Positions 22,618-39,176 of a stretch of 64,000 nucleotides of DNA are shown here, in pieces. Below the pieces are notes generated by a model that saw only the letters and a program-made list of their open reading frames with translations, was not told the origin of the DNA and made no database searches. Origin of the DNA: Alphaproteobacteria bacterium. Lineage in GTDB: Bacteria > Pseudomonadota > Alphaproteobacteria > Reyranellales > Reyranellaceae. The stretch lies in the NCBI GenBank assembly GCA_017308235.1, contig JAFKFL010000033.1:1-64000 (forward strand), in the 5' to 3' direction. The translations under genes were made by a program, and so were the position numbers. Position 1 is the first letter of the stretch. Every line of letters begins with the position of its first letter.

Positions 22618-22649
22618 CGGCTCATCTCCTCATGTGATTTGCTGAGACC

Positions 22650-23906: not shown

Positions 23907-23918
23907 GCTCTCGCTCTC

Positions 23919-24923
23919 CTATCCCAGCCAGCTCTTGGCCGGACGCATCTCGCCGACCAGCAGGCCGACCACGTTTTTGACCGGCGGATGCAGGAGTTCT
24001 TCCTGCTGCGCTGCCGGCACGACTCCGAGATGGACCAGCAAGGTGGCCATGGCGATCTCGGCCGCGCGACCCGCGCCGTCCCACATCTTGAGGGCAATCC
24101 CGAGTCCCTGTCCTGGCAGCATGCCGCAGAACACGCCCTCCGCGCCGGTCTTCACCTGCGCCACCCCTGGCAACGCCGCGTTGATGCGGGTACAGAAACG
24201 GCCGGTACCCGCCATCATGAAAGGCTCCGCGCTGATCGCCGCGCGAATACGGTTGGCGGCATCGGCGCGCTTGCTCGAAAGCCGCGAAGGATCGGCCATG
24301 CTCGCCATCGCCTGGGCAAGCCTCTTGAGCGGCGTGGCGAGCGTGGGGATACCGCAGCCATCGGTACCATGGGCGAAGCCGCCGGCATCGACGCCGCAGA
24401 GATCCGTCATCACGTCACGCAGCCGCCGCTGCACCGGATGGTCGTACTTGATGTAGTCGCGCGTGGGCTCGCCATGGACGACAGCCGTCGTGAGGAAGCC
24501 GCTATGCTTGCCCGAGCAGTTGTTGAAGGCTGGCGTCGGTAGGGCTTCCTCGCGCGTCAGCGCCTCGATCGAGGCTTGCAGGCGTGGCGGATGAGTGCCG
24601 CATTCAAGATCGCTTTCGCTCAATCCCACTTTCTGGAGCCAGGCGCGCACGGTCTCGACATGCCGCGGTTCGCCGTTATGCGAAGCACAGGAGAGCGCGA
24701 TATGTTCGTTGCCAAGGCCGAACCGCTCAACCGCTCCGCTCTCGACGAAGGCCATTGCCTGGATGGGCTTGTTGGCCGATCGCGGCAGGATGGCGGCATC
24801 GATGTCGCCCCAGGCCGCCACAACAGTACCATCGGGCTTCACGACGGCGGCGATGCCCTCGTGGCGGCTCTCGACCATCGGGCCTCGCGTAACTTCGACG
24901 ACAACAGGTCCATTGCTACTCAT
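23919..24923 (-). CDS. Class 3 (Rhizobium etli inducible-type) L-asparaginase
   Basis: A 334-residue protein of the asparaginase II (PF06089) family, unrelated to E. coli AnsA/AnsB. All key residues of the R. etli ReAV enzyme are found one position later: the Ser49-x-x-Lys52 dyad (PRSANKP), Ser81 (SCASH), and the zinc ligands Cys136, Lys139 (NNCSGKH) and Cys190 (TDGCGIP). It should hydrolyse L-asparagine to aspartate and ammonia in the cytoplasm. Its start overlaps the PP2C gene by four bases, an unusual pairing. Confidence 0.88.
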   Translation of the reverse strand: MSSNGPVVVEVTRGPMVESRHEGIAAVVKPDGTVVAAWGDIDAAILPRSANKPIQAMAFVESGAVERFGLGNEHIALSCASHNGEPRHVETVRAWLQKVGLSESDLECGTHPPRLQASIEALTREEALPTPAFNNCSGKHSGFLTTAVVHGEPTRDYIKYDHPVQRRLRDVMTDLCGVDAGGFAHGTDGCGIPTLATPLKRLAQAMASMADPSRLSSKRADAANRIRAAISAEPFMMAGTGRFCTRINAALPGVAQVKTGAEGVFCGMLPGQGLGIALKMWDGAGRAAEIAMATLLVHLGVVPAAQQEELLHPPVKNVVGLLVGEMRPAKSWLG

Positions 24924-25627
24924 GGCTCGCGTTCCAGCTTGATGATGGTGACATTATCCTGATGCGCGACGCCGACCGCCAGCACCGTGGCAATCAAGTC
25001 CCGCACCGGCCGCGCCGCATGGGCTGCGATCGCGTCGTCAGAAAGGCTCTGCACGCCGTCGCTGCACAGGAGCAGCCGGCTGTCGCGGCCGAGGCGGCGG
25101 CTTCCCTGGTCGATGAGGCTGAGCGGCGTGCCCATCACCGCTTCGCGCAGCGTGTGGCGGCCGGGATGAGCCGCAGCTTCCTCCGCCGTCAACATGCCGC
25201 GCGCTCGCAGCGCATCGATCTGCGGCGCCATCGAATGATCGGCGTTCAACCGCTCGAGTTTGTTTCCAACAACGAGATAGAAAGGCGAATCCCCGACGCT
25301 GATCCATCGCACTTCGTCGTTGGCGACGAGAGCCGCCACGACCGTCGAGCCCATGCCCTCGAGCTCGGGCTTCCCCCGTCCACCGTCCCGTACCGTGGCA
25401 TTCGCCATTTGCAAGGCGTCGGCCAGCGAGCCGCCTTGCTCGACGGACTTGGCCATCGCCCCGACCACGAGTTTCGAGGCCGTCGCGCCACCTGCATGAC
25501 CGCCCATACCGTCGGCGACGATCGCCAGCAACGATCCATCGGCCAGCGGCCGCAAAACCCAGCTATCTTCTTGATAGGAGCGGCCGCCCTGATGTTGGCT
25601 GCCCTCGCCCCGCCAGCGGGACCTCAT
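24920..25627 (-). CDS. PP2C-family serine/threonine protein phosphatase
   Basis: A 235-residue compact PP2C domain. Metal-binding aspartates are seen in QEDSW (about 19-23) and VADGMGGHAGG (about 37-47), followed by GMGSTVV near 91, SVGDSPFYL near 110, LLLCSDGVQSL near 185 and QDNVTII near the end. No transmembrane or sensor domain is attached. It is a stand-alone phosphatase for phospho-Ser/Thr proteins; no matching kinase is visible in the window. It overlaps the asparaginase start by four bases and lies 16 bases after the P450 stop. Confidence 0.9.
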   Translation of the reverse strand: MRSRWRGEGSQHQGGRSYQEDSWVLRPLADGSLLAIVADGMGGHAGGATASKLVVGAMAKSVEQGGSLADALQMANATVRDGGRGKPELEGMGSTVVAALVANDEVRWISVGDSPFYLVVGNKLERLNADHSMAPQIDALRARGMLTAEEAAAHPGRHTLREAVMGTPLSLIDQGSRRLGRDSRLLLCSDGVQSLSDDAIAAHAARPVRDLIATVLAVGVAHQDNVTIIKLEREP

Positions 25628-25643
25628 ACCCTAATGCCACATC

Positions 25644-26876
25644 CTAGTGCCACACCGCTGGAAGCTTGTTGAGACCGCGCAACGTGAAGCTGCGCCGCCA
25701 ATCAGGCCGATCCTTCTCCGACAATTCAAGAGACGGCAGTCGCTCCACAAGCGCCGTGAAAACCAGTTCGGCCTCCAGACGGGCGAGCTGCGCGCCGAGG
25801 CAGTGATGGATGCCGCCGCCGAACGACATCGGCCGCACATTCTCGCGTCCGACATCCAACCGGTCGGGATCAGTGTATTGCGCCGGGTCGCGATTGGCGG
25901 CACCCAACAGCGTGATGATGCTTTCACCGGCCGGTATGGTAACACCGCCGACCTCGACCGCCGTATTGGTCACCCGCCCCGTCATCTGGACCGAAGAATC
26001 GTAGCGCAACAGCTCCTCGACCGCGCCGGGGATCAGCGATGGCTCGTCCTTGAGCCGCTGCCACTGGTCGGGCGAGCGATGCAGCGCCAGCAGGCCGTTG
26101 CCAATCAAATTGGTGGTGGTCTCGTGCCCCGCGCCGAACAGCAGGCCGATATTGGCCCGCAGTTCCTCCGACGTCAGCCGGTCACCCGCCTCCTCCGCTC
26201 GCACGAGCTCCGTCGTCAGATCATCCTGTGGCTCACGACGGCGCAGTTCGCAAAGCTGATCGAAATAGACGTTGCCGGCCTCGGTCATGGTATTGGCGTG
26301 GTCGAGCTCCTCACGGCTCATGGGCGCCGGATCGAGGATACGGCCGCTCACATTGCTGCCGACCAGGAACGGCGCGCGATGTTCCTCGGGAATCCCCAGC
26401 ATGTCGCAGATCACGATCACCGGGAGGCGATGGGCAAGATCGCGAATCACATCCATGCCGCCCTTGTCGACCACACGATCGAGCTGCTCGTCGACCAGCT
26501 GGCGGATGCGCGGACGCATGTCGGCGATCCGCCGTGCCGTGAAGGCTTTTGTCACCAGGCTACGCAGCCGGGTATGATCTGGCGGGTCGAGAACCAGCAT
26601 GGTGTGCGATAGATTGGCGATGGTCGGCTCGCCCATCCTGTCCTCGCCGTAGCGCCGGCGGATGGAGCCTGCGAAATCCTTGCCGAAACGCTTGTCGCGC
26701 AGCGAGAAGGCCACATCCTCGTATCGCGTCAGCAGCCAGAAGCCCTGCTCTGCCTTGAACACCGGCGCATGCTCACGCAGCTTGCGGTAAAACGGATAGG
26801 GATCGGCGAGAAAGGACGGATCGAGCGGATTGAATACCAGCCCGGTCTCTGCTGGCGGATGGCTCATCTCATTCAT
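25644..26876 (-). CDS. Cytochrome P450
   Basis: A 410-residue soluble bacterial P450. It has the I-helix LLFGAGHETTTN (about 240-251) with the acid/Thr pair for oxygen activation, the ExxR region near 285, and the heme loop FGGGIHHCLGAQ with thiolate Cys359. It needs separate redox partners, none of which is visible nearby. The start may be the ATG at 26876 or the one at 26867. It heads the minus-strand run P450-PP2C-asparaginase-methyltransferase-SDR and is divergent to the ligase genes. Confidence 0.92.
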   Translation of the reverse strand: MNEMSHPPAETGLVFNPLDPSFLADPYPFYRKLREHAPVFKAEQGFWLLTRYEDVAFSLRDKRFGKDFAGSIRRRYGEDRMGEPTIANLSHTMLVLDPPDHTRLRSLVTKAFTARRIADMRPRIRQLVDEQLDRVVDKGGMDVIRDLAHRLPVIVICDMLGIPEEHRAPFLVGSNVSGRILDPAPMSREELDHANTMTEAGNVYFDQLCELRRREPQDDLTTELVRAEEAGDRLTSEELRANIGLLFGAGHETTTNLIGNGLLALHRSPDQWQRLKDEPSLIPGAVEELLRYDSSVQMTGRVTNTAVEVGGVTIPAGESIITLLGAANRDPAQYTDPDRLDVGRENVRPMSFGGGIHHCLGAQLARLEAELVFTALVERLPSLELSEKDRPDWRRSFTLRGLNKLPAVWH

Positions 26877-26937
26877 GTCTCCACCTTTAGCACGATATCC
26901 CTTGCAGCGTGAATGAACGGCACCCTAGCATTGTATC

Positions 26938-27855
26938 ATGCAAGCATTGACCCTGGGCCTGCACCGTGTCGTCGAACAGAAGCCTGATGCGCCCTCCACG
27001 AGTTTCGCCCCCCGTCGGCGTACCTGGCGACAGACGGCCGAGCGCGTGAGCCGGGTTGCTGGGGCACTCGTCACGCTGGACGTCGGGCGGGGTGACCGGA
27101 TCGCCATCTTGGCACAGAACAGCGACCGCTATCTCGAGCTTATGTATGCTACCGCCTGGTTGGGTGCCGTTCTGGTCCCGATGAGCACGGGACTTGGCGC
27201 CGCCGAGGTGGAATACATCCTTGGCGACTCAAGGGCCGTTGTCCTTTTCATCGACGGCACCATGGCGCATCACCTGACCGACCTCGAAGGCAGGATCCCC
27301 CAGATACGCGAGGTCGTCTGGATCGACGACATCGCCTCGCCCGAAGGCATGCTGCATTACGAGGACCTCCCGGCGTATCAACCTGTTGCTGACATCTGTG
27401 CCCACGACGACGACCTCGCCGGCCTGTTCTACGAGGGCGGAACCGGCACAGCCCTCAGCCACGCCGCAATGAGTGGAAACGCCATCGACGCTGTCGATAC
27501 CCTGGGCTTCAACGGCGACGCCGTCTATCTCCACGCCTCACCGATGTTCGAGCTGGCCGAAGATGCGGTGACCTTCGGCGTCACCCTGGCCGGCGGCCGT
27601 CACGTCTTCGTGCCGCACTTCGAACCTCGCGAGGTGCTGCAGATCATCACCGCCGACAAGGTCACCCACGCTCAGCTTCTTCCGGACATGATCGACCAAC
27701 TTCTTTCCTATCGTCGCTTCAGCGACTTCGATCTCTCGAGCCTGTCCACGATCCTTCACGGAACCGTGCCCATTCCCCAATCTGTGCTCGACAAGGCTTC
27801 CGTGCTGCTGCCGGGCGTTCGGCTGGTCGATGCCGAGGGCAGGACGGCGAACTGA
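26938..27855 (+). CDS. Truncated adenylate-forming (AMP-binding) domain protein without the P-loop lysine
   Basis: A 305-residue protein similar to the N-terminal part of acyl-CoA synthetases (about 520 residues). The early core is present: GDRIAILAQNSDRYLELMYATAW split over residues 52-74, then VLVPMSTGL. Where the ATP loop YTSGTTGxPKG is expected, residues 165-173 read YEGGTGTAL, with the Lys missing. The A5 region and the whole C-terminal lid are absent. The frame is open to a clean stop two bases before the next ATG. It probably cannot adenylate and may be a partner or regulator of the next gene's product. Confidence 0.75.
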   Translation: MQALTLGLHRVVEQKPDAPSTSFAPRRRTWRQTAERVSRVAGALVTLDVGRGDRIAILAQNSDRYLELMYATAWLGAVLVPMSTGLGAAEVEYILGDSRAVVLFIDGTMAHHLTDLEGRIPQIREVVWIDDIASPEGMLHYEDLPAYQPVADICAHDDDLAGLFYEGGTGTALSHAAMSGNAIDAVDTLGFNGDAVYLHASPMFELAEDAVTFGVTLAGGRHVFVPHFEPREVLQIITADKVTHAQLLPDMIDQLLSYRRFSDFDLSSLSTILHGTVPIPQSVLDKASVLLPGVRLVDAEGRTAN

Positions 27856-27857
27856 CC

Positions 27858-29408
27858 ATGCCCGGCATTCCTCCCTACTACGACTGGATCACCCACCACG
27901 CCGGACGTCGGCCGCAACAGCTCGCCATCCACGATCTGCAAACGGCACGGAAATTCAGCTATGCCGACCTCGACCGTCGCGCCAATGGTCTCGCGACGGC
28001 TCTGACGGCACTCGGAATCTCGAAGGGTGACCGCGTCGCCCTGCTTGCTCCCAACTGCGCCGAATATTTCGAGCTCCAGTTCGCTTGCGGGCGGATCGGC
28101 GCCATCATGCTGCCACTCAACTGGCGGCTTACCGTGCCGGAACTCGAGTACATCCTGAGCGATGCGGCTCCCAGGCTGCTGATCTACGACAAGGACTTCG
28201 CCGCTGCCGCTCAGGAACTCGCAAAACGTTGCGGGCTGCCACATCTGCTCGAGATCGATCATGAGCGCCCTGACAGCGCCTACGAGCGCGCGCTTGCAAC
28301 CGACATCGCCGCACCTCCGCCCGTCGCTCTCACCCACGACGACATCGGCATGGTGATGTACACATCGGGCACCACGGGTCATCCCAAGGGCGCCATCATC
28401 ACCCACGGCATGGTGCTCTGGAACTGCGTCAACCTCGGCATTCCAGCGTTCATTTCGCCCACAACCGTTCAGCTCGTGGTGCTGCCGTTGTTTCACACCG
28501 GTGGGCTCAATTGCTACGCCAATCCGGTACTGCATGCCGGCGGCGCCATCCTGATCATGCGCAGCTTCGATCCGGGCCTGGCGCTCGACTACATCTCCGA
28601 TCCCACGGTTGGCATCACGCACTTCTTCGGCGTGCCGGCCCCATACCAATTCATGATGCAGCATCCGAAATTTCAGAATGCCGACCTTACTCGCCTCAAG
28701 GTGGCGGGCGTCGGCGGTGCGCCTTGTGCCCTTTCGATCCTGGAAGGCTGGGCGGCACGCGGCGTGCCGCTGGTGCAGGGCTGGGGCATGACCGAGACCA
28801 GCCCGGCCGGCACGATGCTCGATGCCGCTGATGCGGTCCGCAAGCTGGGATCGGCCGGCAAGGCCGTGATGCACACGGCCATCCGAATCATCGACGAGGC
28901 CGGCCGGGATCTGCCGCCTGGCGCGGTCGGGGAGCTCCTGATCAAGGGGCCAAACATAACGCCAGGTTATTGGAACAAGCCTGAAGCGACGGCGAGCGCC
29001 TTCACCGACGGCTGGCTTCATACTGGCGATGCCGCCCGCCTGGACGAGGAGGGCTTCGTCTATATCGTCGACCGCTGGAAGGACATGTACATCTCAGGAG
29101 GCGAGAACGTGTACCCGGCCGAAGTCGAGAACGTCCTCTTCCAGCTGCCGCAGGTCGCCGACGCGGCAATCATCGGTGTGCCCAACGACCGCTGGGGCGA
29201 GGTCGGTATGGCCATCATCGTGCGCAAGCCCGATCAAACACTGGAGGAAGGCGACGTGATCCGTCACTGCCTCGGCCGGCTGGCGAAATTCAAGGTGCCG
29301 CAGTCGGTCACCTTCGTCGAAACCTTGCCGCGCAATGCGACCGGCAAGGTGCTGAAGCGCGAGCTACGGGCGCAGTTCATCGGCGCCGACAAGCCCGCCA
29401 TCAGCTGA
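27858..29408 (+). CDS. Acyl-CoA synthetase (class I adenylate-forming, fatty-acyl/aryl type)
   Basis: A complete 516-residue AMP-binding enzyme. The P-loop YTSGTTGHPKGAIITH begins near 168; QGWGMTETSP (about 306-315), WLHTGDAARLDEEGF (about 383-397), the hinge YIVDRWKDMYISGGENVYPAE and the C-terminal catalytic Lys in ATGKVLKREL (about 497) follow. It activates a carboxylic acid as the acyl-adenylate and transfers it to CoA. It starts two bases after the truncated paralogue, so the two are co-translated. The divergent P450 suggests oxidation and activation of one substrate, which is inference. Confidence 0.9.
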   Translation: MPGIPPYYDWITHHAGRRPQQLAIHDLQTARKFSYADLDRRANGLATALTALGISKGDRVALLAPNCAEYFELQFACGRIGAIMLPLNWRLTVPELEYILSDAAPRLLIYDKDFAAAAQELAKRCGLPHLLEIDHERPDSAYERALATDIAAPPPVALTHDDIGMVMYTSGTTGHPKGAIITHGMVLWNCVNLGIPAFISPTTVQLVVLPLFHTGGLNCYANPVLHAGGAILIMRSFDPGLALDYISDPTVGITHFFGVPAPYQFMMQHPKFQNADLTRLKVAGVGGAPCALSILEGWAARGVPLVQGWGMTETSPAGTMLDAADAVRKLGSAGKAVMHTAIRIIDEAGRDLPPGAVGELLIKGPNITPGYWNKPEATASAFTDGWLHTGDAARLDEEGFVYIVDRWKDMYISGGENVYPAEVENVLFQLPQVADAAIIGVPNDRWGEVGMAIIVRKPDQTLEEGDVIRHCLGRLAKFKVPQSVTFVETLPRNATGKVLKRELRAQFIGADKPAIS

Positions 29409-29414
29409 TTGGGC

Positions 29415-29768
29415 TCAGACCAACGGTACGTAATCGTACACACCGATCCCCTGCATGATGAGGAACGTAAGCGATGTTGTTCCGGCATTGGTCACGAGGT
29501 GCGGTCGTTTCGCCGTGGCGACGAAGCTTTCGCCCGGTCCAAGCTGCACCTCCTCCTTCGGGTTTTGCAGGAAGAGACGCATCTGCCCTTCGAGCACGTA
29601 GAAGGTGTCACTGATATTGGTGTGATAGTGCCAGGGCACTTTCTGGGTCGGTGAAAGCTGCAACTCGCTGATGCGGAAACCCGGCCGTTCGGCATGCCGT
29701 GCCCGCCGCTCCACTTCGTAGAGATGGCTTGCGTCCTTCACCGGCTGAAGCCGTTGGGTGCTGCTCAT
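29415..29768 (-). CDS. Cupin-domain protein
   Basis: A 117-residue single-domain cupin. Motif 1 is WHYHTNISDTFYVLEG (about 46-61), with two His and a Glu/Asp side chain available for metal; motif 2 is GPGESFVATAKRPHLVTN (about 77-94). Small cupins bind a metal and act as isomerases, dioxygenases or sensors, so the function is open. It converges with the acyl-CoA synthetase (6 bases) and is divergent to the GST, with a 16-base palindrome between. Confidence 0.75.
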   Translation of the reverse strand: MSSTQRLQPVKDASHLYEVERRARHAERPGFRISELQLSPTQKVPWHYHTNISDTFYVLEGQMRLFLQNPKEEVQLGPGESFVATAKRPHLVTNAGTTSLTFLIMQGIGVYDYVPLV

Positions 29769-29804
29769 ATGGCAAGCCTAGACCTACACATCTTGATCAA
29801 CAAG

Positions 29805-29820
29805 CGCAGTCGCGACTGCG
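29805..29820. promoter_or_regulatory. 16-base perfect palindrome between cupin and GST genes
   Basis: CGCAGTCGCGACTGCG reads the same on both strands and lies in the 99-base divergent region, 36 bases upstream of the cupin start and 47 bases upstream of the GST start. It could be an operator for a dimeric regulator shared by both genes. Roughly one such palindrome is expected by chance in a window this size, so the position, not the sequence alone, is the argument. Confidence 0.35.
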
Positions 29821-29867
29821 GTTTATTCCTCCGGACAAGGCAAAAAGTTCCTGATAAATAGCCGTTC

Positions 29868-30524
29868 ATGTTGACGATCTACGGCGTCTATCGCTCGCGC
29901 GCCTCGCGCCCCATCTGGTTGGCCAATGAGCTTGGCCTAACGTTCAAGCACGTGCCGGTCATCCAGCATTACCGCCTGACGAATGCCAACGCGCCGGATG
30001 CACCCCTGAACACACGATCTCCCGGGTTCCTCAAGGTCAACCCCAACGGCCATGTCCCGTCGATCGACGATGACGGGTTGGTGCTGCACGAGTCGCTCGC
30101 CATCAATCTCTATCTCGCCAAGAAGCATGGCGGCCCGCTGGCGCCGGCCAATGTGTCGGAGGACGGTCAGATGTCGATGTGGTCGCTGTGGGCCGCGACC
30201 GAGGTCGAAACCCAGGCGCTCAATATTGCCTATCATCGCGCCGGTAATCCTGCCGGTGGCAGGGATCCGAAGGTCGCCGATGCCGCCATCGCCGCTTTGC
30301 GCGCCCCCTTCGCGGTGCTCGACAAAGCGCTCGCCCACAGTGGCTATCTCGTAGGTGACCGCTTCACGGTGGCCGACATCAATGCCGCCGAGATCGTGCG
30401 CTACGCCTTGCCGGCGCCTGAGCTATTCGACGCCGCTCCCAAGGTGAAGGCATGGCTCGCTGCCTGCCAAAGCCGTCCGGCCTTCAAGAAGATGTGGGAG
30501 ATGCGCGACAAGGAGCCGGCCTAG
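29868..30524 (+). CDS. Glutathione S-transferase family protein
   Basis: A 218-residue cytosolic GST. The N-terminal thioredoxin-like domain has [15 protein letters not shown] (about 9-23), the cis-proline segment [11 protein letters not shown] (about 61-71) and the [10 protein letters not shown] glutathione-binding helix. The all-alpha C-terminal domain has the [18 protein letters not shown]-capping box (about 161-177). It conjugates or reduces substrates with glutathione. It is read alone, divergent from the cupin. Confidence 0.85.
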
Positions 30525-30540
30525 CGGCCCACCCCGCCGA

Positions 30541-30999
30541 TCATGCCGCCAGGACAAGGCGGTCCGAGGATTTGGCGAACCCGAAGCTCTCGTAGAAACG
30601 CTTGGCGTCGCGATTGACGTCGCCGACGAAAGCCTCGACCTGGACTGCACGGCGCTGGCGGGACCATTCGACGGCGGCGGCCAGCAACCGGCGACCGATG
30701 CGGCGGCCGCGCTGGTCGGCGCGCACGACGAGATTGTCGACCTCCACGACCTTGTGGATGCTGCCCTCAGGCCGCGGCACGATCCGCGTGACCAGCACTG
30801 CCACGCCCAGCACACCAAGCTCGCTTTGCGCGACCAGAAGCGTCATGGCGGGGTTCGCCAACCACGTCATCACCTGCTCACGCGCATGCTTTGGGTCATC
30901 GAGCAGGTCGCAGAGCGCATCAGAGTCTCGCGGACCTGCCAGCCGCACGCGAATCGCGGGCGGCGCCACGGGTTTTATCTCGGCATCAGCGATCGACAT
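30541..30999 (-). CDS. GNAT-family N-acetyltransferase under attenuator control
   Basis: A 152-residue Gcn5-related acetyltransferase. The start is the ATG at 30997-30999, preceded by GGAGG with good spacing. The acetyl-CoA loop reads QRGRRIGRRLL (about 98-108), with Arg for the first Gly of the usual RGxGIG pattern, and the NRDAKRFYESFGF signature follows near 131. The acceptor is unknown. Upstream lie a consensus promoter, a Trp-Tyr-Phe leader peptide and a terminator hairpin, suggesting expression rises when aromatic aminoacyl-tRNA is short. The acceptor may therefore be an aromatic amino acid or derivative, which is inference. Confidence 0.85.
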   Translation of the reverse strand: MSIADAEIKPVAPPAIRVRLAGPRDSDALCDLLDDPKHAREQVMTWLANPAMTLLVAQSELGVLGVAVLVTRIVPRPEGSIHKVVEVDNLVVRADQRGRRIGRRLLAAAVEWSRQRRAVQVEAFVGDVNRDAKRFYESFGFAKSSDRLVLAA

Positions 31000-31053
31000 C
31001 TTATCCTCCGTCTGCGGTCTCGCCGCGGCCCGGAGGCCCTCTCCAGAAACACA

Positions 31054-31117
31054 GAAGCCGCCGGGAAGCGGCGGCTTCGTCAGGTCACAACCCTTCGCGC
31101 CGCCTATTTTGGCGACG
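31054..31117 (-). promoter_or_regulatory. Transcription attenuator (alternative hairpins) upstream of GNAT gene
   Basis: Four RNA segments can pair in the classical manner. Segment 1 (31111-31117) pairs with segment 2 (31098-31104) in a 7-bp hairpin with one G-U. Segment 2 can instead pair with segment 3 (within 31068-31078; 6-7 bp). Segments 3 (31069-31078) and 4 (31054-31063) form a perfect 10-bp terminator stem with a five-base loop, followed by TGTGTTTCT. Segment 1 begins right after the leader Phe codon, so a ribosome stalled on Trp-Tyr-Phe would cover it and free segment 2 to block the terminator. The U-tract is poor, which is the weak point. Confidence 0.7.
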
Positions 31118-31154
31118 TAAAGTACCAACCCTTCTGGAGCAGGTTCGTGATCAT
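31104..31154 (-). CDS. Leader peptide with Trp-Tyr-Phe codons
   Basis: A 16-codon frame, MITNLLQKGWYFTSPK, ends with TAG inside the first attenuator hairpin. Trp10, Tyr11 and Phe12 are consecutive (31119-31127). The ATG lies seven bases after the -10 box, which is where transcription should begin, so the message appears leaderless; leaderless start is also known for the rhizobial trpL leader peptide. An ATG six bases upstream would overlap the promoter and is unlikely. The peptide's role would be ribosome-mediated sensing of charged aromatic tRNAs. Confidence 0.7.
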   Translation of the reverse strand: MITNLLQKGWYFTSPK

Positions 31155-31160
31155 GCGCAT

Positions 31161-31190
31161 TTTATAGGGCGTACGAGCAGGTTCTGTCAA
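31161..31190 (-). promoter_or_regulatory. Consensus sigma70-type promoter for leader peptide/GNAT transcript
   Basis: On the minus strand TTGACA (31185-31190) and TATAAA (31161-31166) are separated by 18 bases, the best sigma70 match I found in the window. The predicted start near 31154 coincides with the A of the leader peptide ATG. The promoter lies just after the stop of the MBL-fold gene, so the GNAT gene has its own transcription unit. Confidence 0.75.
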
Positions 31191-31230
31191 AGCTTCAATT
31201 TGGGAGGGCTTCATTCGGCATAGCGTTTGA

Positions 31231-32133
31231 TCAGAAGCCCGCTGCTGCCGGTGCAATGAATTCCAGTCGGAAACCGTCACCTTCGCGGTTGATCGCCGTG
31301 ACATGCGGCGCGGCGAAATGGGTTGGAAACAGCAAGGCGCGGTTCTCGCAGCAATGCTCGAGCATCTTGCGGCGTGTCACCCGCGCCAGCACCGGGTCCT
31401 CGCAAAAGCACGAATTCCATGTGGGCTCATAGACCTGGACCGGATGATGCAACGTGTCGCCGCAGAACAACGCCCGATCGCCACCGTCATCCAGCTTCAG
31501 CACGACATGCCCCAGCGTGTGTCCCGGCGATGGTTCGATCATCAGGCGATCGTCGATGGCGTGTGCGCCATCGAGCAGAACCGCCTGCTTTGCCTCGATC
31601 ACCGGCAGGATGCTGTCGTTGTAAATCGCAGCCAGGTCGAATTCCTGCGCGCGGCGGCCCGCGCCCGGCCCCCAAAAGTCATGCTCGATGCGGGAGAAGA
31701 GATATCTGGCGTTGGGAAACGTCGGCACCCAACGCCCGTTCTCGAGCCGGGTGTTCCATCCGACATGATCGGCATGCAGATGCGTGCACAGAACGATATC
31801 GATGTCTTCGGGCCGCGCCCCCGCGGCCCGAAGCCGTTCGAGAAAAGGGATGTCCTGCCGATGGAAACGCGGTTGCGAGGGCCGCTCCTTGTGATTGCCC
31901 GCACAACAGTCAAGCAGGATGGTGTGGCGGTCCGTCCTGATCAGCCACGAATGGATACTGGTGATCAGCCTGTCGAGCACCGGATCGAAATGGACCGGCA
32001 CCATCCAGGACAGGTGCCGATTGAACCGTTCGCGCACGACGCCGGTAAGGAAGGACTCGACCAGGGAACCGCTGGGCCCGAGCTGCTCCTCGATGCGGGT
32101 GACGGTCGTGCTGCCGATCTTCCAGGTCTGCAT
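31231..32133 (-). CDS. MBL-fold metallo-hydrolase
   Basis: A 300-residue metallo-beta-lactamase-fold enzyme. The dinuclear zinc motif HLHADH gives His118, His120, Asp122 and His123; further ligands appear in SPGHTLGH (about 218-225) and FPTHFAAPH near 275. Relatives include lactonases (AHL-lactonase type), arylsulfatases and thiol hydrolases, so the exact reaction is open. It lies 18 bases downstream of the DapA-family gene in one direction, so the aldolase product could be its substrate, which is inference. Confidence 0.85.
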   Translation of the reverse strand: MQTWKIGSTTVTRIEEQLGPSGSLVESFLTGVVRERFNRHLSWMVPVHFDPVLDRLITSIHSWLIRTDRHTILLDCCAGNHKERPSQPRFHRQDIPFLERLRAAGARPEDIDIVLCTHLHADHVGWNTRLENGRWVPTFPNARYLFSRIEHDFWGPGAGRRAQEFDLAAIYNDSILPVIEAKQAVLLDGAHAIDDRLMIEPSPGHTLGHVVLKLDDGGDRALFCGDTLHHPVQVYEPTWNSCFCEDPVLARVTRRKMLEHCCENRALLFPTHFAAPHVTAINREGDGFRLEFIAPAAAGF

Positions 32134-32151
32134 CGGTCCTCGGACCGCGAC

Positions 32152-33093
32152 TTACTCGGCCGCGACGGCCATCGCCTGTTTGAGACCAGGCATGGTGAAG
32201 CCGAGCTTGTCGAGCTTGGCGATCATGTCCTTGCCTTGCGCATCGGCCGTCTCCACGAGCGGCGGGCGGACCGGCGTCCAGTCCGCATCGGCACCGTAGT
32301 GCGCAATGCAGTACTTGAGTGCCGGGATCATCACGTAGCCTTGCATGACGCCGCGTACTTCGTTGATCCAGCCCTGCAGCTTCTCGCCTTCTGGCGTTGC
32401 ATGCTTCTTGTAGGTCTCGGCGATCTTGCCGGGGTTGATGTTGGCTGTGGCGCTGATGCAGCCCGCGCCGCCGGACTTGATGTTGTCGATCAACGGCTTC
32501 TCGTTGCCGGAAAAGACATCGAAGCCGTCCTTCGCGAAGGCATCGATCATGCTCTTGGTATGCGGCCAATCGTCGGACGAATCCTTCATGCCGGCGATCT
32601 GCTTCGGGTAGGCCTTCATCAGCCGCTCGACAAGCTTGTGCGTGATCGGCACCGCCGACACCGGCGGGATATGGTAGAGATAGACGCGAAGGCGATCGTC
32701 ACCGACACGCTGCACGACCTCCGAGAAGAAGCGGAACAGCCCCTCCTCCGGCACGCCCTTGTAATAGAAGGGTGGCAGCATCAGGACGCCCGAAACGCCG
32801 AGCTTGGTCGCATGGGCGCTCACCTTAGCCGCTTCCGTGACCGAGCAGGCGCCGGTGCCCGGCATCATGCGGGCTGTCGGCACACCAGCAGCGACGACTT
32901 TCTCAAGGAGTTCCAAGCGCTCGTCGGCCGACAGCGAATTGGCCTCGGAGTTGGTCCCGAACATGGCCAGCCCGCAATCCTGGCTCAGCAGCCATTTGCA
33001 ATGGGCGATGAAACGGCCGACGTCGGGCGACAGGTCACGCTTGAAAGGAGTGACGACGGGCGAAAGAACGCCTTTGATCCGCGCTGCGGCCAT
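32152..33093 (-). CDS. Dihydrodipicolinate synthase/N-acetylneuraminate lyase family aldolase
   Basis: A 313-residue TIM-barrel class I aldolase of the DapA family. The Schiff-base Lys170 lies in IAGMKDSS and Tyr140 in VYLYHIPP. The usual GTTGE loop reads FGTNSEANSLS (about 45-55). The start ATG at 33091-33093 follows GGAG; the longer frame upstream adds an Arg/Asn-rich stretch unlike the family. No lysine pathway genes are nearby, so it is more likely a catabolic keto-acid or sugar-acid aldolase than DapA itself. It is divergent to the amidase. Confidence 0.85.
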   Translation of the reverse strand: MAAARIKGVLSPVVTPFKRDLSPDVGRFIAHCKWLLSQDCGLAMFGTNSEANSLSADERLELLEKVVAAGVPTARMMPGTGACSVTEAAKVSAHATKLGVSGVLMLPPFYYKGVPEEGLFRFFSEVVQRVGDDRLRVYLYHIPPVSAVPITHKLVERLMKAYPKQIAGMKDSSDDWPHTKSMIDAFAKDGFDVFSGNEKPLIDNIKSGGAGCISATANINPGKIAETYKKHATPEGEKLQGWINEVRGVMQGYVMIPALKYCIAHYGADADWTPVRPPLVETADAQGKDMIAKLDKLGFTMPGLKQAMAVAAE

Positions 33094-33152
33094 GATTTTA
33101 TTTCTCCGGAAATTGGCGCGCCTGTTTTGCAACGAAGCGCCGGAGACGTCCA

Positions 33153-34595
33153 GTGGCTTCGACCAGCGATATTCTTCCCGATCTCTGCCGCCTGCCGGCC
33201 TCGGTTTTGCACCAGCACATTGCTGCCAAAAAGGTCTCGCCCGTCGAGCTCACGAAAGCCGTGCTGGCGCGCGCAGAGGAACTGCAGCCGGTGCTCAATT
33301 GCTTTATCACGCTCGTGCCCGATGAAGCGATGAGAGCGGCACAGGAAGCAGAAGACGCCGTCATGCAGGGCAAGCCGCTGGGCTTGCTGCACGGCATTCC
33401 CTATTCGGTGAAGGACCTGGTCAATACCGCCGGTGTGCGGACAACCTTCGGCTCGCGACTCTATGAACAGAACGTGCCCAAGGAAGACGCGGTCGCAACC
33501 GACCGCACCAAGCGTGCCGGCGCCGTCCTGTTCGGCAAGACGACGACACCGGAGTTCGGTCACAAGGCGTTGACCGATGCCCCGCTGTTCGGCCGCACCC
33601 GCAATGCCTGGAGCGCCGAACGCAGCTCGGGCGGATCGAGTGGCGGCGCCGCTGTCGCGGTGGCTTCCGGCATTGGCCCGATCGCGATCGCCACCGACGG
33701 CGGCGGCTCGACGCGAATTCCGGCCGCCGCCAATGGCCTTGCCGGCATCAAGCCGACCCTGGGCACCATCCCCCACAGCCAGGCCGCCGACGCCTTCGGC
33801 AACTATACCTACGTCACGCCGATGACGCGCACGGTCATGGACACGGCCTTGATGCTACAGGCAATGGCGGGGCCGCATCCTTCCGATCCCTGGTCGATCG
33901 GCGTCGCTCCTCAGGATTATCTCTCGGCAGCGCGGGCGGAAGGCGACCTCAAGGGCAAGAAGATCCTCTACAGCCTCACCTTCGGCAACAGGGCGGTGGC
34001 AAAGAGCGTCCAGGCCGCCTTCGAGCGCGCCCTCGGCCGCCTGCGTGAACTCGGAGCGGAGCTGGTCGAGTTGACCGAAACGGTGCCTGATATGGAAGCG
34101 GTGTGGAAGGTCATCAACCATACGACCTGGCGGGCGCGTTTCGACGACATGATCCGTCGTGACGGCGAGCGCATGTCGCCTTCGCTGGTGCGCCAGGTGG
34201 CAATGGCGATGGAGTGGTCCGGCGCCGACTACCAGCGCGCCATGTTCCAGCGCGCCGAGATCTTCCGTCTGGTGCAGCGCTGGTTCGAGACCGTCGATTT
34301 CCTGGTCATGCCCACGCTGTCGCGAACGGCCCTGCCGATCGACCAGGATTTGTTCGAGCCGATCAACATCGACGGCGTCGACGTGGGCGAGCTTCGACGC
34401 AACTGGTTCCCCTACACCATGGCCTTCAATATCACGGGCCATCCTGCACTCACGCTTTGCTGCGGCTATGACAACGAGGGCCTGCCGATCGGCTTGCAAT
34501 TCGTCGGCCGTTTTCGCGACGATGCCTCGGTGCTGCGCGCGGGCGCCCTCTATGAAGCGAGCGAGGATTGGCTCACGCGATGGCCAGACCTCTGA
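33153..34595 (+). CDS. Amidase (amidase-signature family)
   Basis: A 480-residue amidase-signature hydrolase. The Ser-cisSer-Lys triad is visible as Lys87 (YSVKDLV), Ser162 (GGSSGG) and Ser186 (DGGGSTRIP), with the normal 24-residue spacing between the serines. Such enzymes hydrolyse amides, including aryl and amino-acid amides; the GatA type is also related, but no GatB/GatC genes are present. The end overlaps the pseudouridine synthase gene by 16 bases. Confidence 0.9.
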   Translation: MASTSDILPDLCRLPASVLHQHIAAKKVSPVELTKAVLARAEELQPVLNCFITLVPDEAMRAAQEAEDAVMQGKPLGLLHGIPYSVKDLVNTAGVRTTFGSRLYEQNVPKEDAVATDRTKRAGAVLFGKTTTPEFGHKALTDAPLFGRTRNAWSAERSSGGSSGGAAVAVASGIGPIAIATDGGGSTRIPAAANGLAGIKPTLGTIPHSQAADAFGNYTYVTPMTRTVMDTALMLQAMAGPHPSDPWSIGVAPQDYLSAARAEGDLKGKKILYSLTFGNRAVAKSVQAAFERALGRLRELGAELVELTETVPDMEAVWKVINHTTWRARFDDMIRRDGERMSPSLVRQVAMAMEWSGADYQRAMFQRAEIFRLVQRWFETVDFLVMPTLSRTALPIDQDLFEPINIDGVDVGELRRNWFPYTMAFNITGHPALTLCCGYDNEGLPIGLQFVGRFRDDASVLRAGALYEASEDWLTRWPDL

Positions 34596-35320
34596 CACGC
34601 CCATCGGTCCGACCGCCTGTTCGGCGACCGCCACCGCTTTCACCCGAGGAGATCCAGGCCCGCGTGCTCCACCGCGACGGGCTGATCCTGGTGATCGACA
34701 AGCCCGCCGGGCTCGCGGTTCATGCCGGCCCTAGCGGCGCGCCCAATCTGGAGGAATGCTTCGACGCCCTGCGCTACGGCCTGCCGCGGCCGCCAGCGCT
34801 CGCCCATCGTCTCGATGCGGATACGTCCGGCGTTCTGGTGCTGGGCCGCCATCCCAAGGCACTCAGCAAGCTCGGCCGCCTGTTCGCCGGCCGCGGCACG
34901 GAGAAGACCTATTGGGCAATTGTCCGCGGTGCGCCGCCCGCCAACGAAGGCACGTTCGACGCGCCGCTGCTGAAAACAAATACCAGGAGCGGTTGGTCGG
35001 TAGCGGTTTCGGACAAGGGACAGTCGGCCGTCACGCGATACCGGGTTCTGGGCCGCGGTCCCGACGCCACGTGGCTGGAGCTGCGGCCCGAGACCGGCCG
35101 CACGCATCAGATCCGTGTGCACTGTGCTCATGCAGGCTGTTCCGTTGTCGGCGACCGGCTCTACGGTATGGTCGACGCGGGCCAGCAGCTTCATCTCCAT
35201 TCGCGAGCGATCGTGCTGCCCCTCTCCAAAACCAAGCCGCCGATCCGGGTGGAGGCGCCGCCGCCGGCGCACATGCTACCCTCGCTGAAGATGTGCGGTT
35301 ACCTCAATCCCGAGACGTGA
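34580..35320 (+). CDS. RluA-family pseudouridine synthase
   Basis: A 246-residue pseudouridine synthase without an S4 domain, as in RluA (short form). The catalytic motif LAHRLDADTSGVLVL (about 73-87) contains the active Asp, and RPETGRTHQIRVHCAHAG follows near 171. It probably modifies tRNA or 23S rRNA. The ATG at 34580 lies inside the end of the amidase gene, giving translational coupling. Its 3' end overlaps the convergent gene by 17 bases. Confidence 0.88.
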   Translation: MARPLTRPSVRPPVRRPPPLSPEEIQARVLHRDGLILVIDKPAGLAVHAGPSGAPNLEECFDALRYGLPRPPALAHRLDADTSGVLVLGRHPKALSKLGRLFAGRGTEKTYWAIVRGAPPANEGTFDAPLLKTNTRSGWSVAVSDKGQSAVTRYRVLGRGPDATWLELRPETGRTHQIRVHCAHAGCSVVGDRLYGMVDAGQQLHLHSRAIVLPLSKTKPPIRVEAPPPAHMLPSLKMCGYLNPET

Positions 35321-35978
35321 CCCAGATCCGCAAGGGATCGCCGATCTCGAACCCGGCCTTGTGCGCCGCTTTCAGTTCGTCGCCGGACTCGTAGCCGACC
35401 ACCGGCAAGCCAGGAAACGTCATCGCGGCAAGCGTGCTGAGGTCGCGCCATACCGCCGGCTCGTCGTCGGCATCGGCCACGACGTTAGTCAGCCCGACCA
35501 CCTTGTCCGCCCGATAGAACGTGCCGCCAGCCACGATCGCGCCATTGCGGCGGCCGGAAAACATGGCGAAGTTCCCGTCGCCGAACAGCGCGGCAGGAAA
35601 CGCATCGCCGCCTGGCCCCATACGTTCCCACATGAGGCCGGAGACCATGACCGATGCCTTCGGCTGCGGCTTGCGGATCCAGTTCGCCTCCTGCAGCACC
35701 TCGAAGCCAAGCCGGGCGATGTCGAGCGTATGGAAGCTGTCCTTCACCGCCCAACGACCAGGCAAATGCGACTTCAGGAGAATGCGCACGGTCTGACGTT
35801 GCTCTGCGAGGTCTGCGTCGCCCGACGTCAGCGTCACGACATTGGGATAGAAGCGCGGCACCGGCTCGGCATTGACCCAGGTGTGGACCAAAAACCTGCC
35901 CGCCGTGCCGTGTGCAAAACACACGGCATTGCACCAACGCGCATTGTTAAGCGCGGCAGTGATCGTCCAATCTTTCAG
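35304..35978 (-). CDS. GNAT-like conserved protein with apparent CTG start
   Basis: A protein of about 224 residues that I recognise only as a GNAT-like conserved hypothetical: it has an N-terminal NNARWCNAVCFAHG segment and a C-terminal GLPVVGYESGDEL region resembling the last GNAT helix. That N-terminal block lies upstream of the first standard start (GTG at 35924). In the open frame before it there is no ATG, GTG or TTG, only a CTG at 35976-35978, which overlaps the permease stop (CTGA) and follows GAGGAAG by seven bases. Translation therefore probably starts at CTG. It is the last gene of the NEW3-ABC operon. Confidence 0.6.
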   Translation of the reverse strand: MKDWTITAALNNARWCNAVCFAHGTAGRFLVHTWVNAEPVPRFYPNVVTLTSGDADLAEQRQTVRILLKSHLPGRWAVKDSFHTLDIARLGFEVLQEANWIRKPQPKASVMVSGLMWERMGPGGDAFPAALFGDGNFAMFSGRRNGAIVAGGTFYRADKVVGLTNVVADADDEPAVWRDLSTLAAMTFPGLPVVGYESGDELKAAHKAGFEIGDPLRIWVTSRD

Positions 35979-36946
35979 GCGCGCACTTCCTCGCGCTGGA
36001 AGATGACGTAGGAGGCCGAGAACACCACGATCATGCCGGCAATCAGACCGGTAACCTGCGGCCAGATCAAGAGCAGGCTTTGGCCGAGCGGCAGGGGCGC
36101 GCCCATGATTGCCCCGCGCATCTGGCTCGGCAGCATGGGGCCGAGCGTCCGGGTTTCAGGGTTGAGCAAGGCCAGTACGGCTTCGCTGAACAAGGTTCCG
36201 GGCGATAGGCGTTGCAGCGCAAGCGCAAGCTCCTGTAGCCCGATGTACTGGTCGAGGCTCGTGATCTCCGGCGGCACGAAGGCCCGGGTGATCGCCTGGG
36301 CGATCAGCGGCCAGAGAATGAAGAAAAAGAGCCAGAGGCCAAGCGCACTGAGCGCCGATGTCGCCGTCGATCGGAAGACCACGGAGAAGAACATGGCAAC
36401 GGCGAGCCACACCCCACCGTAAGCGACGGCGACCACGAGGAAGCCGAGCGCTCGTGCCACCTCCACGCCGCGCGGCGGCAGGCCGAGAAGCAGCAGACCT
36501 GCGCCGAACACGATCAGCCACAGCGCCGCCAAGGCCACCGCCAACGTGGTGAGGCCGGCCAGAAATTTGCCCAGCAGCAGAGCATCGCGATAGAGCGGCT
36601 GCGACAGCACCCGACTCAGAGTGCGGCGGTTGAACTCGCTGTTCACAAGGTCGAAGCCCAACCCGATCGCCATCAACGGGATCACAAAGTTCAGGGCCTG
36701 CACAAAGGGGATCGGCACCTGTTCCGGCTCGATGGTGAAGATCCGCAGAAACAGATAGGCGTCGGAGCCGATGGTGGTGCGAAGCTGCTGCAGCGATGAC
36801 GCCACCGGGAAAGCGCCGAAGACGATGATGAACAGCGTCAGCACCAGCATGCGAACGCTGCTGAGATGATCGGCCAGCTCTTTCATGTAAACCGGACCGA
36901 TGCCGGTGAAGGGCGACCCCTCTCGCCCGCCGAGGCTACGCGGCAT
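35975..36946 (-). CDS. ABC-2 type transporter permease (NosY-like)
   Basis: A 323-residue membrane protein with six or seven helices. It has the ABC-2 permease pattern: a first helix after about 30 residues, then FDLVNSEFNRRTLSRVLSQP (about 98-117), the cytoplasmic coupling segment, then four further helices and a long external loop near 210-260. Its gene overlaps the ATPase gene by 11 bases. With the NEW3 protein and the ATPase it resembles Nos-type DFY transporters, but no nosZ gene is present, so the cargo is unknown. Confidence 0.85.
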   Translation of the reverse strand: MPRSLGGREGSPFTGIGPVYMKELADHLSSVRMLVLTLFIIVFGAFPVASSLQQLRTTIGSDAYLFLRIFTIEPEQVPIPFVQALNFVIPLMAIGLGFDLVNSEFNRRTLSRVLSQPLYRDALLLGKFLAGLTTLAVALAALWLIVFGAGLLLLGLPPRGVEVARALGFLVVAVAYGGVWLAVAMFFSVVFRSTATSALSALGLWLFFFILWPLIAQAITRAFVPPEITSLDQYIGLQELALALQRLSPGTLFSEAVLALLNPETRTLGPMLPSQMRGAIMGAPLPLGQSLLLIWPQVTGLIAGMIVVFSASYVIFQREEVRA

Positions 36947-37874
36947 GGCGCGCCTCCTGGAAGTAGCGGGTATAGACCTCCTCCAGACTCGGCTGCAGGT
37001 CGGAAAGCTTGGTCAAGGCGCCGCCCGCCGAGACGATGCGCTGCGCGACCTCTGCTCGCACGTCATGATCGGCGGTGACCCGCCAGGCTCCCTCGCCGGC
37101 CGGCACGACTTGCCGCACGCCGGCGATGCTTCCCAACGTGCCTGCGACGTCTTGGCCAGTCGCCTCGATCAGCAGCGGGTGGCCGGCACCCAGCACCTTG
37201 TTGGCAAGCTCGACCACAGTCCCCATGAGGGCGATCTTGCCCTGATTGAAAAGCGCCACACGGTCGCAAACGCTCTGCACGCGATCGAGCAGATGAGACG
37301 ACAGGAGTACCGCCACGCCGCCCCGCTTGAGGCGGCGGATCATCTCCAGGAGTTCGAAGGTGGCATGCGGGTCGAGGCCCGATGTCGGTTCGTCCAAGAT
37401 CGCCACTTCGGCTTTCTTCATCACGATCTCGGCGATGCCGAGCCGCTGGCGCATACCACGCGAGTAGGTCGCGACCCGCTTGTCGGCGACGTCGGCGAGA
37501 TCGACGCTTCGCAGCGCCTCCATAATGCGGGCTTCCGTCTCCCGTCGCGGGATGTCGAGCAGGCGCGCGGTGTAGATGAGGTTCTCGCGCGCCGACAGAT
37601 TGTCGTAGAAGCCGACCGCATCGGGCAGATAGCCGACGCGCCGCTTGACCTCAAGCGGCTGGCGCACCGGGTTGAAGCCGAGCACGTTCACCGAGCCACC
37701 GCTGATCTCGGTGAGGCCCAGCATCATCAGGATCGTCGTCGTCTTGCCAGCGCCGTTGGGGCCCAACAGACCGAAGATCTCGCCACGCCGGATACTGAGA
37801 TCGATGGCGTCGACCACGCGGGCCCCGCCGTAGAGCTTCAGGAGTCCGCGGGCGTCAATGACATTGTCGCTCAT
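36936..37874 (-). CDS. ABC transporter ATP-binding protein (NosF/CcmA-like)
   Basis: A 312-residue ATPase with a C-terminal extension of about 90 residues beyond the nucleotide-binding domain, as in drug- and Nos-type exporters. Walker A is GPNGAGKTT (about 38-46), the signature is YSRGMRQRLGIAEIV (about 136-150) and Walker B is VAILDEPTSGLDP (about 156-168). The start ATG at 37872-37874 gives the normal N-terminus. It lies 10 bases after the NEW3 gene. Confidence 0.88.
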   Translation of the reverse strand: MSDNVIDARGLLKLYGGARVVDAIDLSIRRGEIFGLLGPNGAGKTTTILMMLGLTEISGGSVNVLGFNPVRQPLEVKRRVGYLPDAVGFYDNLSARENLIYTARLLDIPRRETEARIMEALRSVDLADVADKRVATYSRGMRQRLGIAEIVMKKAEVAILDEPTSGLDPHATFELLEMIRRLKRGGVAVLLSSHLLDRVQSVCDRVALFNQGKIALMGTVVELANKVLGAGHPLLIEATGQDVAGTLGSIAGVRQVVPAGEGAWRVTADHDVRAEVAQRIVSAGGALTKLSDLQPSLEEVYTRYFQEARHAA

Positions 37875-37884
37875 TGCCGCTGTC

Positions 37885-39078
37885 TTACCGACGGCCGAAG
37901 CGCGCCACGGCGCCCAGCAGTACCAACAGCGCCACCGCGATGATGCCGATACCAACGATGCCCCACAGGGTCGAGGTCGTCACCGTGATGCGGAAATCGG
38001 CATTCGCCGAATCGCCACGGCCGCCAGCACGGAACGAGGCGACATAGTCGCCGGCGATCGCCTTGTCGGACGGCGTCACGACTGCCTCGACTTCCTTCTT
38101 GTCGCCCGCGGCAAGGCTCGCGATGCTTTTGGGATTGAACTCGACCTTCCAGTTGGTCGGCACGGTACCCGACATCTCGACATCCTCGAGCGGCGCGGTA
38201 CCGTCATTGCTGACGACCAAAGTGTAGTTCGAGGTCTTGCCGACCGTGGCATCGCCGCTCAGCCGCCCGTCCTTGGTGCTGAGCGCCAGCTTACCCTGGC
38301 CGCTGATCTGCAGGGTCACGCGCTGCTCGGCGGTGGCGCTTTCGGCCGACGCCTTGACCAGCACAGGATAGTCGCCGGCCTTCACGTCGCGCGGCGGCGT
38401 CACCTTGATCTTCACGTCCTTCGAGGCGCCGGCAGCGATCGGCAGCGAGCTGATCTCGTTGCTGCCGTAGCCCTCGGTGAAGGTCGTCTGGAAGTTGCTT
38501 GGCGCCTGGGCGGCCAGTGCAACCGTCAGGTCCTTGCCGCTGTCGTTGGTGACCGAAAGCGTATAGTCGAACGACGACTTCGGCGTGCCGCGCAAGGCCG
38601 GCAGGCTCGACTTGATCGTGAGCTTGGCCGGTGCGATCTCGCCGATCGTCAGCGTGACCGGCAGCTCGATTGCCTGGTTCTGGCCCTTGGCGCGGATCGT
38701 GATGACATGCGAGCCGGGCTTCGCATCCTTCGGGACATCGACGCGCAATTGCAGGGACACGCTCTCGTTCATGGTCGGCATCGCCGCCGCGACGGGCTGC
38801 CCGCTGCCCATCAGGTCGATCTTCCAGCCGGCCGGCACGTCGCCAAGCGACAATGCCAGCGGCTCAGGCGCCAGCCCCATGTTCTGCAGTTTGAAGTGGA
38901 CATTCGTCACCTCACCGGCGCGGACCGTCTGTGACGGATAGTCGGTGAGCAGCCACAATCCCTTGGCTGTCGAGGTTGCAGCTGTCGCTGCTGGAGCGGG
39001 CGGCGTGGCCGCAACGACCTGGGTCGCGGCAAAAGCTGAAGTAGCGATCAAAGCCAGTAGAGCAATCAGACGGCGCAT
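37885..39078 (-). CDS. Exported NEW3-domain protein with C-terminal membrane anchor
   Basis: A 397-residue protein with a Sec signal peptide (cleavage near VVAATP, about residue 23) and then three beta-sandwich repeats of the NEW3 / COG1470 type (about 45-140, 150-255, 265-365), each with a GxYxxxV/FxxSF-like strand. A C-terminal membrane helix (about 371-392) ends in Arg. It should sit on the outer face of the inner membrane. Co-transcription with an ABC-2 transporter suggests it is an extracytoplasmic partner of that transporter. Confidence 0.8.
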   Translation of the reverse strand: MRRLIALLALIATSAFAATQVVAATPPAPAATAATSTAKGLWLLTDYPSQTVRAGEVTNVHFKLQNMGLAPEPLALSLGDVPAGWKIDLMGSGQPVAAAMPTMNESVSLQLRVDVPKDAKPGSHVITIRAKGQNQAIELPVTLTIGEIAPAKLTIKSSLPALRGTPKSSFDYTLSVTNDSGKDLTVALAAQAPSNFQTTFTEGYGSNEISSLPIAAGASKDVKIKVTPPRDVKAGDYPVLVKASAESATAEQRVTLQISGQGKLALSTKDGRLSGDATVGKTSNYTLVVSNDGTAPLEDVEMSGTVPTNWKVEFNPKSIASLAAGDKKEVEAVVTPSDKAIAGDYVASFRAGGRGDSANADFRITVTTSTLWGIVGIGIIAVALLVLLGAVARFGRR

Positions 39079-39176
39079 TTGGAGTCCCTGCGTCTTGTCG
39101 AAACCATCCCCGTTTTCGCGGGCGCGAGGCTATGTCTCGGAAAACGACGAAAAAAAGGCAAGCCGACTTTATTCGT

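Follow-up and report, generated by a model that had tools for sequence, protein, structure and literature searches.

A Trp-Tyr-Phe leader and candidate transcription attenuator in front of a GNAT acetyltransferase gene of Reyranellaceae

Attenuators that respond to an amino acid normally point to the pathway in which that amino acid is made or used, and the locus described here raises the question of what a leader with consecutive aromatic codons, fixed to an acetyltransferase gene, is doing there. The locus lies on the minus strand of the window (i.e. the whole stretch of 64,000 nucleotides that was analysed), and direct reading confirmed its outline as given in the initial annotation, namely a TTGACA-N18-TATAAA promoter leading into a 16-codon frame with Trp, Tyr and Phe codons (WYF), and a 10-bp terminator stem (31078-31054, with a 5-nt loop) ahead of the GNAT gene (30999-30541; Table 1). 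The tail past the stem, TGTGTTTCT, is a weak U-tract. From the comparison of sequences and predicted folds it is very probable that this leader is a ribosome-mediated transcription attenuator of the GNAT gene, responding to the charging of tRNA-Trp, tRNA-Tyr and tRNA-Phe.

Table 1. Positions in the window of the leader, its pairing segments and the gene behind it
Feature	Position	Strand	Basis or remark
-35 box TTGACA	31185..31190	-	direct reading; TTGAC[N] in 59/59 relatives with upstream sequence
-10 box TATAAA, 18-nt spacer from -35	31161..31166	-	exact TATAAA in 27/59 relatives
Leader ORF MITNLLQKGWYFTSPK, 16 codons + UAG	31104..31154	-	ATG 31154, 6 nt past -10; TAG 31106-31104
Regulatory codons UGG-UAC-UUU (Trp-Tyr-Phe), putative	31119..31127	-	56/56 distinct leaders; 61/63 GNAT-first loci
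Segment 1, partner of segment 2	31111..31117	-	94.1% of cells paired; two-sided changes in 2/7 pairs
Segment 2, partner of segment 1 or 3	31098..31104	-	first base = last base of stop codon
Small conserved hairpin within antiterminator loop	31082..31093	-	94.2% of cells paired
Segment 3, terminator 5' arm and antiterminator 3' partner	31069..31078	-	stem prediction and alignment
Segment 4, terminator 3' arm, then weak U-tract	31054..31063	-	99.3% of cells paired
Predicted hairpin sequestering the Shine-Dalgarno	31005..31036	-	CCUCCG 31036-31031 with CGGAGG 31010-31005; inner hairpin 31026-31014
GNAT acetyltransferase gene, 152 aa	30541..30999	-	PF00583 E 6e-13

Within the 64 kb of the window, TTGACA-N15-19-TATAAA occurs only once, and it occurred in none of 100 shuffles. 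A generic promoter scan of positions 22000-41000, whose rule requires a TATAAT-like box with a final T, missed the leader promoter, and the terminator-like sites in the scanned region were not above chance (12 found versus 11.5 expected). With the terminator count at chance, a weak U-tract and a promoter unlisted by the scan, the significance of the arrangement therefore rests on its conservation. Upstream sequence was long enough in 59 loci. Their best-scoring -35 box (the best choice per locus within a 47-nt stretch) is TTGACA in 49 and TTGACC, TTGACG or TTGACT in 10; its spacing to the -10 box is 18 in 44, and in 48 the distance between the -10 box and the Trp codon is the same. Transcription is predicted to start approximately 7 nt past the -10 box, at the leader AUG, and since the first base transcribed 6-7 nt beyond the -10 box would belong to this codon, a leaderless leader mRNA is to be expected. 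In this it would be like trpL of Sinorhizobium meliloti, which is leaderless, the 5' end of rnTrpL beginning with the ATG of trpL (according to the excerpt of PMC7298713 used here). A second in-frame ATG (31158-31160) stands immediately past the -10 box, and would be too close to it to be transcribed if the start is as predicted.

The GNAT locus is neighboured by a DHDPS-family gene upstream and a convergent GST gene, and no link to aromatic metabolism was found for the neighbouring genes. Between the DHDPS-family gene and the leader lies a metallo-beta-lactamase-fold gene (31231-32133), of which no relative was found at 1e-10 in 63 related loci.

That orthologues should keep the WYF codons had been set as a test beforehand. 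Starting from the leader, its DNA was matched in 59 of the 65 genomes of the genus Reyranella (42 of the 44 of good quality), and WYF was present in all 59 fetched loci (one per matching genome). The six genomes without a leader match (G027, G031, G034, G042, G050 and G060) were likewise without a GNAT match at 1e-12, in a search that had no positive control and that covered several incomplete genomes. Starting from the gene, the direction with less bias, and with a GNAT alignment as query (A3, which was built from GNATs found behind leaders, the leader itself not being used), 77 loci were obtained, mainly from Reyranella, Enhydrobacter aerosaccus, Vineibacter, Desertibaculum and unclassified Alphaproteobacteria and Rhodospirillales. 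From these names the genus of the window can be taken to be Reyranella as delimited by GTDB. The subfamily comprises 63 of the 77 loci (L124-L186, E 5e-15 or better). WYF codons lie at most 420 nt upstream of the GNAT gene in 61 of the 63, and both misses are at contig ends (L152 begins too near the end and L175 begins inside the gene), which bears out the expectation, as far as two overlapping genome sets that are not independent samples can do so. Upstream of the other 14, unrelated GNATs from other phyla (a few with a shorter upstream stretch) WYF was not found once.

The leaders were compared in a set of 59 loci of the genus and six from other genera of the family, of which 63 of the 65 could be cut out whole and 56 are distinct. 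Trp, Tyr, Phe and the following Thr are invariant in all 56, only the third base of the Tyr codon varying within WYF (TAT in 42, TAC in 14), and codons 2-9 change amino acid freely. The ORF columns are gap-free, and the first codon is ATG in 52, GTG in two and an ATG one codon later in two. One genome (G023) carries, beside the intact copy, a decayed tandem duplicate (L058:1440-1720) with a Trp-His-Phe leader, a damaged terminator and a truncated GNAT, which would fit a leader and a gene that are losing constraint together. Partial second leader matches were also seen at contig ends in G037 and G063, and a second match in G010 (L094) was discarded as stem only.

The controlled gene had been called a GNAT acetyltransferase, and this holds on both the Pfam match (Table 1) and the predicted fold, since the AlphaFold2 model (pLDDT 89.7) is a confident GNAT fold that reaches Z up to 18.7 against solved GNATs. 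Compared with one relative (L126) over 137 codons, dN is 0.051 and dS 0.80, and the gene is therefore under purifying selection. The canonical acetyl-CoA motif of GNATs is R/Q-x-x-G-x-G/A, whereas motif A of this protein (window 30682-30711) reads RGRRIGRRLL and does not match it. Arg takes the place of the first Gly of the acetyl-CoA loop in 58 of 62 other family loci (the other four being unmatched by the search pattern), and the GNAT of Desertibaculum (L186) has RGQGIG, with the Gly kept. With an Arg in the loop, yet under purifying selection, GNAT1 is a putative acetyltransferase that could be either an active enzyme or a pseudo-enzyme.

In 31 of the 63 loci (e.g. L125, L138, L160) a second GNAT follows the first, usually overlapping its stop by 1-4 nt; it is apparently broken in two of the 31 (L156, L173), and none was found downstream of the window's GNAT gene. 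GNAT1 of the window and its close relatives lack the segment around HxxARP, which is kept by GNAT2 and several single-copy relatives. Neither this second GNAT nor the Shine-Dalgarno hairpin and the related leaders at other aromatic genes (see below) were part of the initial annotation. As to the substrate, the NCBIfam, PDB-sequence and VIA-align lists contain many GNATs and gave no clear winner by sequence or fold, the candidate neighbours being polyamine, RimI, AAC and BH1408 GNATs, and the protein has no known tie to aromatic metabolism.

The geometry proposed for the leader, with mutually exclusive helices 1:2, 2:3 and 3:4, does fit ribosome-mediated attenuation. Over the 56 leaders, helices 1:2 and 3:4 and the small loop hairpin together pair in 96.6% of 1176 cells, and five of their pairs show two-sided changes (e.g. 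a terminator pair going from AU to UA in three genomes), which is above all 500 shuffles and all slid versions. Helix 1:2 looks rebuilt (by eye) in one leader (L092) and one of its pairs is unpaired in 23 of the 56; the amino acids encoded by segment 1 vary (Ser-Pro, Leu-Leu, Pro-Leu, Ser-Leu), mostly through exchanges of one pyrimidine for another, which leave the pairing with G intact. The outer pair of the small loop hairpin is GC, GU, UA or AU, and is unpaired in 11 of 56. A better U-tract than the weak one of Reyranella follows the terminator in some other genera (e.g. L088/L089). For helix 2:3, pairing reaches 99.7% of cells with next to no variation; the helix is thus kept, but covariation is no test of it. 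The initial annotation had expected pairings 2:3 and 3:4 to persist in orthologues, and both do, although two-sided changes back 3:4 and 2:3 is too invariant for support of that kind.

Switching between the helices appears only when transcripts are cut before segment 4. In such transcripts, a ribosome placed at the Trp, Tyr or Phe codon gives 2:3 with P>0.5 in 56 of 56 leaders, a ribosome at the stop codon gives it in none (nor does 1:2 exceed this value), and without a ribosome 1:2 exceeds P>0.5 in 66% and 2:3 in 20% of leaders. At equilibrium, 3:4 is favoured in 55-56 of 56 full-length leaders in all ribosome states modelled, and antitermination would therefore have to be kinetic. A separate folding run, with leaders extended to the GNAT start and a slightly longer blocked stretch (54 leaders, alignment A1), gave for the stalled state a mean P(3:4) of 0.79 and P(2:3) of 0.14, and for the window leader 0.02 and 0.97, respectively.

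A second hairpin covers the Shine-Dalgarno of the GNAT gene and pairs in 97.5% of 488 cells in 49 sequences (L161 was excluded, its start having been wrongly picked). Two of its pairs show two-sided changes (CUUCCG/CGGAAG in Desertibaculum being one instance), but this covariation is modest, as 8 of 500 shuffles reach the same two-sided count, and so do the slid versions -3 and +1 (although only 42% and 41% of their cells pair). Of 15 other aromatic leaders, 12 are predicted to fold with two-thirds or more of their best Shine-Dalgarno-like hexamer paired, a count that has no shuffle control. In the folding run on 54 leaders, mean pairing of the Shine-Dalgarno is 1.00 without a ribosome, 0.55 with a stalled ribosome and 0.90 with a ribosome at the stop (0.96 for the stalled window leader). 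Given the value of 0.55, a stalled ribosome might loosen this hairpin in some relatives in the folding model; no conserved alternative pairing was found by eye.

From these elements, a sequence of events can be proposed. Transcription would start at or beside the leader AUG, and translation of the leaderless ORF would follow immediately. A shortage of any one of the three tRNAs would stall the ribosome at UGG-UAC-UUU, where it would mask segment 1; segment 2 could then pair with segment 3 ahead of the synthesis of segment 4, so that the terminator would be avoided and GNAT transcribed. During normal charging the ribosome would reach the UAG and cover segment 2, leaving 3:4 to end transcription, and without translation both 1:2 and 3:4 would form. 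The Shine-Dalgarno hairpin would probably act as a second layer, lowering the translation of read-through RNA.

Other explanations need to be weighed against this. It could be that the attenuator is the same and that its natural signal is tRNA modification (i6A/ms2i6A37, MiaA/MiaB) instead of charging: tRNAs reading the U-starting codons for Trp, Tyr and Phe usually carry i6A/ms2i6A37, modification of A37 has been linked to attenuation, and all three invariant codons do start with U. However, tyrS, trpS, DAHP synthase and prephenate dehydrogenase genes have related leaders ahead of them, and these genes are the outputs to be expected of aromatic charging, and modification is therefore an unlikely signal. 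A leader whose main action, once terminated, is in trans (as sRNA or peptide) appears very unlikely, as its peptide varies freely at codons 2-9, unlike a conserved trans-acting peptide, and as the leader stays before GNAT in the 61 readable loci; this is in spite of the strongly conserved GGUCAUGACC-like loop and of the precedent of rnTrpL/peTrpL in S. meliloti, as described in the consulted part of PMC7298713. An sRNA role in addition to cis control may still apply. The remaining alternative, i.e. the terminator of the upstream gene lying by chance beside a meaningless short ORF, would agree with terminator-like sites being no commoner than in shuffles and with the promoter that the generic scan passed over, but invariant WYF codons, a conserved promoter and the retention of the alternative helices, in the family and outside it, refute it, leaving it next to no probability. 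Control of GNAT in cis by the charging of three aromatic tRNAs thus remains the preferred reading.

Aromatic leaders in other places help to interpret this. In the genome of the window itself, trpS is preceded by a leader, MIDVKPLARLFWWRSF (FWW; G000:C1 ~253939-254048; L119/L221), whose model E was 0.29, hence it was recognised by reading. In contrast to the GNAT gene, the tyrS, class II DAHP synthase and trpE genes of this genome showed no short frame with two neighbouring aromatic codons in the ~450 nt upstream, in a comparison that covered a handful of genes and is not exhaustive. The prephenate dehydratase gene has an upstream short frame with Phe-Phe (VPDLARFFGVG...), which is doubtful and shows, by eye, no terminator. 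A search for a TTGAC-type promoter ahead of tyrS, DAHP synthase II, trpE, the prephenate dehydratase gene and trpS found none, and since trpS with its FWW leader is also devoid of one, the promoter test at these genes says little.

In the wider class, the covariance model of the leader (R1) matched 21 of 385 genomes at E<=0.01, five of them in the family. All 17 matches outside the family were inspected: nine are aromatic-codon leaders before a fitting gene, and eight were rejected, being apparently terminators at gene ends, a tRNA flank or chance matches; among the candidates of a second search, which covered the order of G444, L207 and L209 were judged false. The simple WYF DNA pattern matched 10 of 385 genomes (five in the family and five others), which is about the level of the reversed-pattern control. 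Leaders were found before tyrS, trpS, class I and II DAHP synthases, prephenate dehydrogenase and an S4-domain gene, and the families of tyrS, prephenate dehydrogenase and both DAHP synthase classes were confirmed for the leader-bearing genes. The small S4-domain protein, which follows WYF, YYWF or AYF (L100, L101, L108, L110, L201, L202, L204, L206, L208), stands alone and resembles the TyrRS C-terminus, three of four tested scoring below Pfam cut-offs.

The WYF-GNAT combination recurs in Desertibaculum subflavum (L186, to whose place G167 corresponds by its coordinates), of another order (Sneathiellales), and in a congener (G458). A search with the GNAT of this congener at 1e-18 matched 4 of 372 class genomes, including G167 and G304. 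In G304 the GNAT (44%) lies behind a Leu-Tyr-Phe leader beginning MLIAVHAALYFTGFP, with a terminator-like stem by eye; the GNATs of the other two, more distant at 41% and 35% identity to that of G458 (L227, L228), have no such leader. The order of G444 consists only of family f94, and G304 (f129) therefore belongs to another (third) order. As the Reyranella GNATs were not matched at 1e-18, orthology between the G458, G304 and Reyranella GNATs is only approximate.

A WYF leader class is thus tied to GNAT across Reyranellaceae and Desertibaculum, with an altered form in a third order, and the overall distribution suggests movement of aromatic attenuators among gene classes (GNAT, S4-domain protein, synthetases and DAHP synthases) in Alphaproteobacteria. 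Tentatively, the GNAT, alone or as a coupled GNAT1-GNAT2 pair, could be the dedicated stress output of a three-way aromatic tRNA sensor, produced whenever one of the three tRNAs is uncharged and acting on something tied to that stress. If true, aromatic starvation would trigger the acetylation of proteins or small molecules instead of biosynthesis, and the GNAT might, for example, detoxify inhibitors or analogues blocking an aromatic aminoacyl-tRNA synthetase, or might acetylate a component of translation or of the shikimate pathway. The leader provides a likely inducing signal for an uncharacterised GNAT family, which makes its substrate searchable.

With respect to known systems, Rfam gave no match in the window at gathering thresholds and, at relaxed thresholds, only sub-threshold Phe_leader and Xoo1. 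The nearest family, Phe_leader (RF01859; 21.3 bits, E 0.23, below its 55-bit gathering score), has in common with the Reyranella leader an aromatic-codon leader peptide and a four-segment attenuator. Enterobacterial Phe leaders contain a run of Phe codons and control pheA or pheST, whereas the Reyranella leader has one Trp, one Tyr and one Phe codon, and precedes GNAT. Among the matches listed from open-licence PMC papers, none reports a GNAT gene with an aromatic attenuator ahead of it, and the portions seen of PMC2965389 and PMC4833913 do not mention an acetyltransferase.

Rhizobial trpL-trpE(G), as portrayed in the part of PMC7298713 drawn on, likewise comes from Alphaproteobacteria and has a short ORF at the 5' end of the transcript and a ribosome-dependent attenuator, but trpL of S. 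meliloti has consecutive Trp codons and controls trpE(G), in contrast to the single Trp codon in WYF and the acetyltransferase found here. The attenuators of trpS and leuS in some Streptomyces (PMC1262725, in the portion consulted) are also codon-specific leaders before a gene outside the biosynthetic operons; there the product handles the sensed amino acid, a link of which none is known for the Reyranella GNAT. The leaders of tyrS, trpS, DAHP synthase, prephenate dehydrogenase and S4-domain genes in other Alphaproteobacteria share the covariance model and mostly a predicted Shine-Dalgarno hairpin, and differ in the controlled gene and often in the set of aromatic codons.
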